A model generated the notes under the pieces. That model did no database searches. It saw only the letters and a list, made by a program, of their open reading frames with translations, and was not told the DNA's origin. Shown piece by piece: positions 31,087-35,747 of a stretch of DNA of 64,000 nucleotides (within the stretch, counting starts at the first letter, position 1; each line of letters starts with the position of its first letter). Source of the stretch: Gemmatimonas sp. (GTDB lineage: Bacteria > Gemmatimonadota > Gemmatimonadetes > Gemmatimonadales > Gemmatimonadaceae); assembly GCA_011390805.1 (NCBI GenBank), contig JAABRT010000007.1:20387-84386 (forward strand), read 5' to 3'. Both the position numbers and the translations under genes were made by a program.

Positions 31087-31113
31087 CTGAAAACCAGTAA
31101 GAGGAGAGTGATA

Positions 31114-31141
31114 GTTATATACCCCCTCCCCCTATTGTCAA
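31114..31141 (-). promoter_or_regulatory. Candidate sigma70-type promoter of the cupredoxin-copA pair with G-tract spacer
   Basis: Minus strand TTGACA-N16(atagggggagggggta)-TATAAC just upstream of the cupredoxin ATG. Confidence 0.45.
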
Positions 31142-31189: not shown

Positions 31190-31621
31190 CTACACCGGAC
31201 TCAGCGGCTTGCCCTCATGATCGGAAATCAGCACCCACACCGTGCGCGTGCGCTTGGAAAAAAAGAGCCGCACCGTCACGTCCCGAGGCGACTGCTTGAA
31301 GGCAAAGTGAAAGGTGAACGAGGTATCCAGCATCTCGCGGATCACCCCTTCCTTGAAGCGGCCGTAGAACTCCTGCACACGGGTGCACGGCGCGACTTCG
31401 GTGAAGAACTGCTTGCCAATCGCGTCTTCCGGAGCCAGTGAAGCCAGACGCGATTCCACCGCGTTGTACTTGAGAATGCGCCCGGTGCGATCGAGCTGAA
31501 TCACACCGTAGGGCAAGCCATCGAGCTCGCCCGGCGACATGGCGTCAACAATCTCAAGGACGTCGTCAACTTTTGGAGCGGGACTGGGTGGTCCGCTGGA
31601 TTGGCCGTTGGGATCAGTCAT
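31190..31621 (-). CDS. pyp: Photoactive yellow protein (PYP, xanthopsin) homologue, PAS fold
   Basis: LDGLPYGVIQLDRTGRILKYNAVESRLASLAPEDAIGKQFFTEVAPCTRVQEFYGRFKEGVIREMLDTSFTFHF aligns without gaps to remembered Halorhodospira halophila PYP; equivalents of Tyr42, Glu46, Cys69 present. Confidence 0.88.
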   Translation of the reverse strand: MTDPNGQSSGPPSPAPKVDDVLEIVDAMSPGELDGLPYGVIQLDRTGRILKYNAVESRLASLAPEDAIGKQFFTEVAPCTRVQEFYGRFKEGVIREMLDTSFTFHFAFKQSPRDVTVRLFFSKRTRTVWVLISDHEGKPLSPV

Positions 31622-31647
31622 GGCCGAATAATATGACGCGGCAACGC

Positions 31648-31664
31648 CACTGTGCCGTACAGTG
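31648..31664. promoter_or_regulatory. Candidate operator dyad between pyp and dnaE2
   Basis: CACTGT-gccgt-ACAGTG, perfect 6+6 inverted repeat in the divergent intergenic region. Confidence 0.35.
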
Positions 31665-31754
31665 CACTACGAAATGCGGCGGCGGCTCATCGGGGGGCGG
31701 CGATGGACACCATATTTCGGCTTTTATTCGGTTCGCTGCTATATTCCACCTCCC

Positions 31755-32417
31755 ATGCCGCACCCGAACACACCGCAGTATGCCGAACTTCACTGTCATT
31801 CGGCCTTTTCTCTTCTCGACGGCGCCTCGCTCCCCGAGACCCTCGTAGAACGCGCGCATACGCTTGGCTACCCGGCGCTCGCCCTCACCGATCACGATGA
31901 ACTCGGCGGCATCGTACGCTTTGCGCAGGCCGCGGCCAGTGTCAAAATGGGCGGCATTCTGGGCGTTGAGCTCACGGTAGACGTTGACGATTCGCAGCTG
32001 CTGCCGGCGCTGCGCCGCAATTCGGAGCCACCGGCACCCCGACGCACGCATTTGACGCTGCTGGCCGAATCACGCGAAGGGTACGGCAATATCTCGCAGC
32101 TGGTCACGCGCGCTCGCATGGATCGCATGCGCGGTGAACCGGCGGTATCGCTCGATCTGCTGGCGCAACACACCACCGGAGTGTTTGCACTCACCGGCTG
32201 TCCGCGTGGATGGGTGCCGCAACTCGCGCGCAGCGGACGACTGCGTGATGCACGACGTGCGCTTGGCGTACTCAGCGATCTCTTCCCCGATCGCCTCGCG
32301 GTAGAAGTGTGGAATCACGGCTTACCTGAAGAGCGCAAACTGGTGCGACGGTTGCTGCCGCTGGCGCAGGCGCTTGGTGTGCCGTGGGTAGTCACCAACA
32401 ACGTGCATTACGCCTAG
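31755..32417 (+). pseudogene. dnaE2: Error-prone DNA polymerase DnaE2, N-terminal PHP-domain part, terminated by in-frame TAG
   Basis: MPHPNTPQYAELHCHSAFSLLDGASLPETLVERAHTLGYPALALTDHDELGG...PWVVTNNVHYA-TAG; same frame continues as DnaE2. Confidence 0.8.
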
Positions 32418-32432
32418 CCACACGGGCGCATT

Positions 32433-35400
32433 GTGCATGATGTGCTCACCGCGTTGCGTCACGAGCGCACGCTCGATGACATGGGCACACGTTTGCGTCC
32501 CAACGCCGAGTGGTATCTCAAGAGTGCCGAGCAACTCGCGGTGACATGGCAAGGGCATGAAGAAGGCATCAGACAATCGTTGGTGATTGCCGAACGCTGT
32601 GCGTTTCGCCTTGAACATTTGCGTCCCACGCTGCCGGCGTTTCCGTTACCGCCGGCTGTGAGTGCCGACATGTACCTCGCTCAACTCATTGAGCAGGGTG
32701 CCACCGAACGTTGGGGCCCGCCCGGCACCGAGCGTCGCACGCCCAAACATGAAGCGCAGCTGGCGCATGAACTCGCACTTATTGCGAAGCTTGGACTGGC
32801 CGGATTTTTTCTCATCGTGTGGGACATTGTGCGCTTCGCCCGTCGCGAAGGCATTCTGTGTCAGGGACGCGGATCGGCGGCCAACAGTGCGGTGTGTTAT
32901 TGCCTTGGGATTACGGCCGTTGATCCCATTCGCATGGAGCTGTTGTTTGAACGGTTTTTGAGTGAAGAGCGACAGGAACCACCCGACATTGATATTGATT
33001 TTGCGCACCGCGACCGCGAGCGTGTGTTGCAGTATGTGTACGAGCGCTACGGGCGCGAGCATGCGGCCATGGTGTGCGAACAGATCACCTATCGCGGTCG
33101 CAGTGCAGTGCGCGATGTCGCGCGTGTACTAGGCTTCAGCGTGCAGCAGGGCGACGCACTTGCATCGGTAGCCGATCGTTTCAGCGCCAAGGCTACGGCT
33201 GAGTCGTTGCGTGTGCATAGCGCGTCTGCAGAGCATGATGAAGCGAATGAAGCAAAGCAGTTGCAGGCGGCAGCACATCTGCTGGCCCCCGATCCGCGCC
33301 TGGCGTCAGAGAGCACCACCAGTCAGCACGCGCCTGATGTACGCGATACCGAACGCGACATTGCACGCGCGGCATTGCGCGTCGACACGTGGCACTGGCG
33401 GGACAACACACCGGAGAACCGTGCAGCCACGCCCAACGGCGATGGACTCAAACCGCATCAACAGCGCGATGCGGCCAAGCGGGCGCTCAAGCTGGTGGCC
33501 GAGTCAACTTCGGCGAAGTCAGCGCACGTGCAGTCGCGGCAGGTTGAACCGAAACGAACGCAATCACGAGTCGCCGAATCAGCACCGGCCGATCCGTACG
33601 CACCCGACCGTGCATCGAGCGTTGGACCGGCGGGTGGACCGAGTGCGCGCGACCTGCTCGTGCAGCGATTGGGACAGCGCTGGATTGGCGGGACGGAAGC
33701 GGGGCGTCTGGCCAACGAAGCGGCGGTACCGGAGGCGTTGAAGGTGCGCCAACCAGCGGCGGCAATAGACCCCGCCGAGGGCGCCGCAAAAGCAGAACCA
33801 ACAGCGGGCACCACAGACAATGCGTCCCCCCCCCAAACCGGCAACGCCCTGCTCGAATCTGTAGGCCTCGACCCATCAGACCCGCGCGTTGGCGTACTGG
33901 CCGATGTCATTGCCGGTCTGCATCAACTACCGCGACACCGCTCCATTCACGTGGGCGGCTTTGTACTCAGTCGTGAACCGCTGGGCAGCGTGGTACCCAT
34001 TGAACCGGCCAGCATGCCGGGACGCACGGTCATTCACTGGGAAAAGGACGACCTCGATCCCGTTGGGTTTGTCAAAATCGATTTGCTCGGACTCGGCATG
34101 CTCACCGTGGTGCAGGATTGTCTGCTGTATCTCAAGCACACACGCGGCATTGATATTGATCTGGCGCAGCTCGACATGACCGACCAGGCCGTGTACGACC
34201 AACTGTGCGCCGCTGATACCGTGGGTGTATTTCAGGTGGAAAGTCGCGCGCAGATGAACACGCTGCCGCGTTTGCAGCCGCGCTGTTTTTACGATCTGGT
34301 GGTTGAAGTTGCACTCATCAGACCCGGTCCCATTCAGGGCGACATGGTGCATCCCTATTTGCGTCGCCGTGCGGGCACGGAACCCATCACCTATCCGCAT
34401 CCGGCTGTGGAGCATGTGCTCAAGCGTACGCTGGGCATTCCGCTCTTTCAGGAGCAGGGCATGCAGGTGGCGATTGCCGCCGCCGGATTCACGCCGGGCC
34501 AGGCCGATGTGCTGCGACGCGCCATGGGACACAAGCGCAGCCGGGAGCGCATGGCGGAAATTGGTGAGCAACTCATTGCCGGCATGGCCAAAAACGGAAT
34601 TGAAGAAGACATTGCCCGCCGCATTTACAATCAGATCAATGCGTTTGCCGATTACGGATTTCCCGAAAGTCATGCGGCGAGTTTTGCATTGATCGTTTAC
34701 GCCACGGCGTATCTGCGCCACTACTACGGGCCCGAGTTCACGGCGTCCATTCTCAACGCGCAGCCCATGGGCTTTTACGCACCCGGCACGCTCGTGGAAG
34801 ACGCCAAACGACATGGTGTGGAAGTGCGCGCGATTGACATCACAAAGAGCGCGTGGGATCACACATTGGAACTCACCGACGGACGCACGCTCGTGCCCAG
34901 CGACGGCACCGTGCAGTGGCGGCGGGAGCACGTCAACCCGCAGAACGTCACGCGTACTGACAGTGTGTCGCCCGAACAACCAACCAGCACGTCACCCGGG
35001 CTTCCCCCCCAAAAACCGCCCGCTGTACGGCTGGGCTTTCGCCTCATCCGTGGGCTCGGCGCAAAAGCGCGTGCACATCTTGAACGCGCGTTGGCCGATG
35101 GTCCGTTTACGAGCGTCCCGGATTTTGTGCAGCGTGTGCCGTTGGACCGCGCGTCGCTCACGCACATGGCCGAAAGCGGTGCGTTTGATGCGCTGTTTAC
35201 GCACGAGCCGCCTTCGCGTCGGCGTCGCGTGGCACTGTGGCAACTGTTGGCAGCACAGCGTGGTGATGCCGGTCCGCTTGCACCCACGGCAATCACCGCT
35301 GCTCCAACCGCAGTACGCGCATTGAGTGGTGTAGAACTCACCGCCGCCGATTATCGCATGACCGGCTTGTCGCTGGCCGGGCATCCCATGAAACATGTGC

Positions 35401-35747
35401 GTGAGGCGCTGGCCATGAATAACGTGCGCACCGCGTCACAGCTGCTGCGCGACGGTCGTGATGGTGAACCGGTGGGCACGGCCGGACTGGTGATCTGTCG
35501 TCAGCGTCCGGGCACGGCCAAGGGGTTTGTCTTTCTCACCCTCGAAGACGAAACCGGCATGATCAACGTGGTTGTCACGCCCAAGCGCTTTGAGCGTGAT
35601 GCCAAAATCATTTCCGGCTCACCGCTGCTGCTCGTGCGCGGTGTACTGCAGGTGGAGGGGCGTGTTGTAAACGTGCGCGCCCGGTCGTTCCGCGCGCTCA
35701 GAGCCAACAGCGGCGAGGGGTTTGTCAAAGCACACAACTACCGCTAG
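32433..35747 (+). CDS. dnaE2: Error-prone DNA polymerase DnaE2, remainder after the amber codon
   Basis: Frame identical to 31755..32417; ILCQGRGSAANSAVCYCLGITAVDPI, FERFLSEERQEPPDIDIDFAHRDRERVLQYVYERYG, RPGPIQGDMVHPYLRRR, FPESHAASFALIVYATAYLRHYYGPEF. Confidence 0.9.
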   Translation: MHDVLTALRHERTLDDMGTRLRPNAEWYLKSAEQLAVTWQGHEEGIRQSLVIAERCAFRLEHLRPTLPAFPLPPAVSADMYLAQLIEQGATERWGPPGTERRTPKHEAQLAHELALIAKLGLAGFFLIVWDIVRFARREGILCQGRGSAANSAVCYCLGITAVDPIRMELLFERFLSEERQEPPDIDIDFAHRDRERVLQYVYERYGREHAAMVCEQITYRGRSAVRDVARVLGFSVQQGDALASVADRFSAKATAESLRVHSASAEHDEANEAKQLQAAAHLLAPDPRLASESTTSQHAPDVRDTERDIARAALRVDTWHWRDNTPENRAATPNGDGLKPHQQRDAAKRALKLVAESTSAKSAHVQSRQVEPKRTQSRVAESAPADPYAPDRASSVGPAGGPSARDLLVQRLGQRWIGGTEAGRLANEAAVPEALKVRQPAAAIDPAEGAAKAEPTAGTTDNASPPQTGNALLESVGLDPSDPRVGVLADVIAGLHQLPRHRSIHVGGFVLSREPLGSVVPIEPASMPGRTVIHWEKDDLDPVGFVKIDLLGLGMLTVVQDCLLYLKHTRGIDIDLAQLDMTDQAVYDQLCAADTVGVFQVESRAQMNTLPRLQPRCFYDLVVEVALIRPGPIQGDMVHPYLRRRAGTEPITYPHPAVEHVLKRTLGIPLFQEQGMQVAIAAAGFTPGQADVLRRAMGHKRSRERMAEIGEQLIAGMAKNGIEEDIARRIYNQINAFADYGFPESHAASFALIVYATAYLRHYYGPEFTASILNAQPMGFYAPGTLVEDAKRHGVEVRAIDITKSAWDHTLELTDGRTLVPSDGTVQWRREHVNPQNVTRTDSVSPEQPTSTSPGLPPQKPPAVRLGFRLIRGLGAKARAHLERALADGPFTSVPDFVQRVPLDRASLTHMAESGAFDALFTHEPPSRRRRVALWQLLAAQRGDAGPLAPTAITAAPTAVRALSGVELTAADYRMTGLSLAGHPMKHVREALAMNNVRTASQLLRDGRDGEPVGTAGLVICRQRPGTAKGFVFLTLEDETGMINVVVTPKRFERDAKIISGSPLLLVRGVLQVEGRVVNVRARSFRALRANSGEGFVKAHNYR

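Follow-up and report, generated by a model that had tools for sequence, protein, structure and literature searches.

A photoactive yellow protein gene conserved head to head with dnaE2 suggests a link between light sensing and error-prone DNA repair in Gemmatimonadaceae

The photoactive yellow protein (PYP) of Halorhodospira halophila (PDB 2phy) is encoded by a gene that is paired with those for p-coumaryl ligase (pCL) and tyrosine ammonia lyase (TAL). Gemmatimonadota have been listed among the carriers of PYP (Xing et al. 2022, PMC9664959; Dohmen et al. 2025, PMC12826048), and which proteins single-domain PYPs signal to is a question of long standing (PMC9664959, PMC12826048). A second described system close to the present locus is the ImuA-ImuB-DnaE2 mutasome of Caulobacter, mycobacteria and Pseudomonas, which Gemmatimonadaceae resemble in having the same three genes, often ordered imuA-imuB-dnaE2, and an upstream box common to them. 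The cassette of Gemmatimonadaceae differs from these mutasomes in that a photoreceptor gene lies in reverse orientation between imuB and dnaE2. Here we describe such a gene, pyp, which in a freshwater photosynthetic bacterium is paired not with pCL and TAL, as in H. halophila, but with dnaE2; it lies in a 64-kb window, i.e., the whole stretch of DNA that was analysed.

The pyp gene (31190..31621) is read on the minus strand, from 31621 to 31190, an orientation absent from the original prediction, and encodes a protein of 143 aa (P0001) that was identified from its open reading frame, phmmer searches, a tree and the predicted fold. As had been predicted, it aligns without gaps to H. halophila PYP: residues 19-132 match residues 9-122 of the latter over 114 residues (about 41% identity over the compared proteins), and H. 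halophila PYP and its mutants were the best solved relatives in a phmmer search of the PDB (E about 1e-26, best 5e-27). Pfam returned a generic PAS fold, and the only NCBIfam match was TIGR02373 (photo_yellow) at 115.5 bits, below the curated cut-off of 143.05; none of the 400 genomes of the phylum passed this cut-off and P0001 is not assigned to the TIGR02373 equivalog, a model that recovers only about 20% of PYPs (PMC9664959). A quick tree, in which eight PAS domains from the window genome were included, set all PYPs apart from the PAS domains (SH-aLRT 99) and placed P0001 within a clade of Gemmatimonadaceae PYPs, named type A here, its exact position being unsure because of long outgroup branches. 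The phylogeny proposed as a check on the original prediction thus places the protein among PYPs and apart from generic PAS domains. The AlphaFold2 model (pLDDT 86.2) retrieved PYP or PYP-derived FAST structures at all Foldseek ranks from 1 to 40 (best E 4.8e-13), with TM of 0.82-0.89 by target length against full PYP chains. The gene is under purifying selection, its dN/dS against nine orthologues being 0.07-0.19. The agreement of phmmer, tree, Foldseek and dN/dS argues against a chance resemblance, and sequence, tree and predicted fold all identify P0001 as a PYP. The scan of viral contigs revealed no relative, and in the promoter of pyp itself only a weak CGTTA element was recognised.

The claim of an intact chromophore site was upheld by the residue alignment, in which the equivalents of Tyr42, Glu46 and the chromophore-binding Cys69 are Tyr52 (codon 31466..31468, minus strand), Glu56 (31454..31456, minus strand) and Cys79 (31385..31387, minus strand), and residues 42, 43, 46, 69, 70, 75, 77, 96 and 119 are identical in P0001 and H. 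halophila PYP. Besides these three residues the two proteins share the fold, the single-domain architecture, Phe96 and Trp119, and P0001 carries the residues that define the PYP family (PMC9664959, PMC12826048); it differs from H. halophila PYP by Ala50, Leu52, Phe94, Phe98 and Gln100 and by a conserved C-terminal ISDxEG tail. Within type A, Cys69 and Glu46 are present in every sequence, position 42 is Tyr or, in a few, Phe, and Ile31, Phe62, Ala67, Pro68, Phe92, Phe96 and Trp119 are retained as well. The original prediction had expected altered tuning from Ala, Leu, Phe and Gln at positions 50, 52, 94 and 100; the alignment confirmed all four differences, but Ala50 and Leu52 are the consensus of the PYP family (PMC12826048), and it is likely that only Phe94 and Gln100, which are unusual, matter for the tuning of P0001. 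Characterised PYPs absorb at 435-465 nm (PMC12826048), and Ala50 in P0001 allows no firm prediction of colour. Phe94 and Gln100 are common to most type-A proteins, some of which have Tyr94, or Met or Lys at position 100. P0001 would bind p-coumarate as a thioester on Cys79 and absorb blue light; since changes at position 100 slow the recovery of H. halophila PYP, its photocycle is expected to be slow.

Photosynthetic reaction-centre genes (pufL and pufM) are present in the window genome, and across the phylum PYP goes with phototrophy: in tallies made by hand over 400 genomes, a strong PYP match was found in 35 of 46 reaction-centre genomes vs 20 of 354 others (p-value 1.5e-26, uncorrected for kinship). 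Within the family (141 genomes) type A occurs in 25 of 36 reaction-centre genomes vs 8 of 105 lacking one; counted by genus (35 in total), the figures are 7 of 8 and 3 of 27 (p-value 1.3e-4). Outside the family, too, PYP goes with reaction-centre genes: under family code f5, most genomes with a reaction centre have their own, more divergent PYP type. A third PYP paralogue, monophyletic with SH-aLRT 100, was observed in the Gemmatimonas-like genus g23 (loci L216, L220, L225, L228-L231, L234, L235, L238, L240-L243), where Cys69 is lost (Ser or Gly) and Glu46 kept; genome G026 has only this type. A Thermoanaerobaculia MAG contains three PYP genes within 2 kb (L143:1549-3392).

Matches to aromatic lyases or AMP-ligases were absent from the 64-kb window, as the original prediction had stated for TAL and pCL, and a chromophore operon at the pyp locus was rejected on this ground. 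The search of the whole genome that had been proposed revealed candidates of both enzymes outside the window. One of the two aromatic lyases in the genome is of histidine type with the motif LVLSHA. The other (G000:C83:9412-11067), distinct from this HAL copy, carries the motif NLVYHL and shows both the His-Leu selectivity motif and the closest kin of a TAL; its best PDB match (E 4e-132) is 2o6y, which we take to be the R. sphaeroides tyrosine ammonia lyase. The 2o6y entry is deposited as a putative histidine ammonia-lyase (PDB). The best PDB matches of a ligase encoded at C83:151956 are plant 4-coumarate:CoA ligases (E 4e-122). Judged by sequence, the two are candidates for a tyrosine-ammonia-lyase-like and a 4-coumarate:CoA-ligase-like enzyme, which would probably supply and activate p-coumarate. 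Close orthologues of the lyase (77% and 69%) occur in only two others of the 400 genomes (G075 and G294), in both at a distance of a few kb from another type of PYP (type B), and with the NLVYHL lyase in only 3 of 400 genomes most PYP carriers must get p-coumarate otherwise. TAL is found in 5% of pyp operons, and its absence from them is common in the PYP family (PMC12826048). The type-B PYP has 124 aa and Met100, and its conserved cluster (L092:10008-15996 and L093:11991-16334) comprises the tyrosine-ammonia-lyase-like gene, an HDOD-like protein, so read from sequence, and several small helical proteins; one small protein of the cluster was looked for in the window genome and not found.

That most type-A genomes are without the lyase, that Phe94 and Gln100 differ from the model PYP and that a sister paralogue in a Gemmatimonas-like genus is without Cys69 would fit a PYP-fold protein that in this lineage has lost light sensing and works for the mutasome as an unliganded or redox PAS module. 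We consider such a loss improbable, given that the chromophore pocket is retained throughout type A, with the variation at position 42 described above, that pyp follows phototrophy, and that p-coumarate may be taken up, as has been suggested (PMC12826048).

Across an intergenic region of 133 bp (31622..31754) pyp faces dnaE2 (31755..35747, plus strand), coding for the error-prone DNA polymerase, and gene coordinates and strands bear out the predicted divergent arrangement. In the assembly dnaE2 is split into 31755-32417 and 32433-35747 by an in-frame TAG at 32415-32417, which separates the PHP region from the polymerase and is either a nonsense change or an assembly error; at this position the congener G001 has a Glu codon. 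The scan of named genomes revealed 22 type-A loci, all Gemmatimonadaceae-like and some with mislabelled titles, and dnaE2 faces PYP in 22 of 22. A type-A PYP-dnaE2 pair was also seen at L120, titled Candidatus Kuenenia stuttgartiensis, which we read as a mislabelled Gemmatimonadota contig. The comparison of gene order in relatives, proposed as a further check, covered 37 non-redundant orthologues from nine genus codes of Gemmatimonadaceae. In 36 of them dnaE2 is near pyp, the two genes invariably being on opposite strands with facing starts; G035 is the lone locus without it. Matched segments are for the most part about 80-230 bp apart, and 3.3-4.4 kb apart in four loci (G001, G002, G004 and G402). 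The imuB gene lies on the far side of pyp in 17 of the 37 loci (11 of the 23 with a flank of at least 3.5 kb) and never on the dnaE2 side, and in seven loci imuA follows beyond it, giving the order imuA-imuB-(pyp reversed)-dnaE2; pyp is thereby often part of the full cassette. All three mutasome genes are present in the window genome, dnaE2 in the window and imuA and imuB on contig C94, whose ImuA matches NF033429 (E 3e-17, below the model cut-off) and whose ImuB-like protein belongs to the IMS family. No other gene family near the 37 pyp loci approaches the conservation of dnaE2, the other flanking genes having turned over. No dnaE2 was found beside other PYP types, the single match (L213) being a divergent type-A locus. 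The linkage is inherited within one family and was not seen with PYPs of Acidobacteriota or Myxococcota, and hence reflects few independent events. A link between light sensing and translesion synthesis had been called speculative in the original prediction; this holds for its function, but the dnaE2 neighbour is not incidental, and the conserved head-to-head pair suggests a tie between light sensing and error-prone DNA repair in the family.

A mutasome box, TTCGGCTTTTATTCGGT (31716..31732, plus strand), of the form TTCGG-N6-TTCGG, lies between pyp and dnaE2, 22 bp before the dnaE2 ATG, adjoining dnaE2 and not pyp; the alignment of intergenic regions places TTCGGTGTATATTCGGT directly upstream of dnaE2, and the same box precedes imuA and imuB on C94. 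In the 3.96-Mb genome the pattern TTCGG-N6-TTCGGT is matched exactly three times, before dnaE2, the imuB-like gene and imuA, a count near chance (2 for the control), and it is the identity of the three genes that carries weight. A stricter pattern gave six matches in five relatives (control: none), of which four lie in the PYP-dnaE2 gap, one is beside imuA and one is unrelated. Of 7 cassette loci, 6 have the box upstream of imuA, among them some with a boxless PYP-dnaE2 gap, and a full box score was reached in 19 of 31 pyp-dnaE2 gaps vs 0.06% of shuffles, about a third of the gaps being without a box. The 11-bp spacing of the direct repeats resembles that of alphaproteobacterial LexA sites, lexA is present in the genome (truncated at a contig end), and the box is a candidate SOS/LexA operator. 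In both genera, at L247 and L255, imuA and a pterin-4a-carbinolamine-dehydratase-like gene point away from each other, and mutasome boxes lie between them.

We lean, if only slightly, towards a functional PYP that is accessory to the ImuA-ImuB-DnaE2 cassette and gives light information to damage tolerance. In Gemmatimonadaceae the pyp gene would be an accessory part of the cassette, lying reversed between imuB and dnaE2, and in the window genome a rearrangement would have moved imuA and imuB away while pyp stayed with dnaE2, the box between them. In a sunlit phototroph, sunlight would bring both the photons for PYP and the lesions bypassed by DnaE2, and a light sensor serving translesion synthesis seems the most economical reading. 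Light may affect the mutasome through action of PYP on its proteins or via the shared divergent promoter region. As P0001 lacks an output domain and the targets of single-domain PYPs are thought to be encoded by genes nearby (PMC9664959), we favour direct contact with ImuA, ImuB or DnaE2 over control of transcription; few transcripts of G. phototrophica change on a dark-light shift (PMC11406998), which speaks mildly for an effect at the protein level or for action after damage. That PYP, in its lit or dark state, has direct control over how ImuA-ImuB-DnaE2 assembles or works, or over dnaE2 expression, and so tunes error-prone replication to sunlight, is a tentative proposal with somewhat less than an even chance of being right.

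Against a mutasome role stand the linkage in one family, the long gaps in four loci, the dnaE2-less G035, the box that adjoins dnaE2 instead of pyp and is missing from about a third of the gaps, the rarity of the lyase, the small transcriptional response of G. phototrophica to light (PMC11406998) and the premature stop in dnaE2. Linkage confined to one family would also be expected if a genuine PYP controlled something else, such as photosynthesis, motility or biofilm, and had entered the cassette by chance, the pairing being kept by descent; PYP follows reaction-centre genes, and single-domain PYPs elsewhere act via signalling proteins (PMC9664959, PMC12826048). We regard this as a serious but rather doubtful alternative, as imuB linkage was lost in 12 of 23 loci with adequate flanks vs 1 of 37 for dnaE2 (Fisher p-value 1e-5, uncorrected for kinship and, among related genomes, indicative), other flanking genes turned over, and no signalling gene recurs beside pyp.

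Downstream of pyp, in agreement with the original prediction, lies a cupredoxin/copA pair; it is on the same strand, 103 bp from pyp, and this proximity would fit a copper-handling unit formed by pyp with the cupredoxin and CopA genes. Such a unit is very improbable: a sigma-70-like TTGACA / TATAAC promoter (minus strand, 31087-31140) lies in the gap just upstream of cupredoxin-copA, which is probably its own unit, and among the loci examined these genes flank pyp only in the window genome (G000) and the congener G001, on which ground a copper link was rejected. The neighbourhood had been called unfamiliar for characterised PYPs; its copper genes proved incidental, and what stands is the dnaE2 neighbour. 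DNA polymerases, repair or SOS genes are absent as PYP neighbours from the main text of two family surveys (PMC9664959, PMC12826048), whose supplementary table could list the pair. The literature search for PYP with dnaE2, imuB or SOS, most subscription journals lying outside it, returned only a review naming them separately. We know of no earlier photoreceptor tied to translesion synthesis, and the link, if true, would be the first such tie; it is open to test in cultured phototrophic Gemmatimonadota. Gene order points to ImuA, ImuB and DnaE2 as three concrete candidates for PYP partners, and on the side of PYP a candidate partner surface is formed by Glu96, His105, Ala107, Arg126, Asp134 and Gly137 (window numbering), residues that are conserved to at least 94% within type A and seldom seen outside it.
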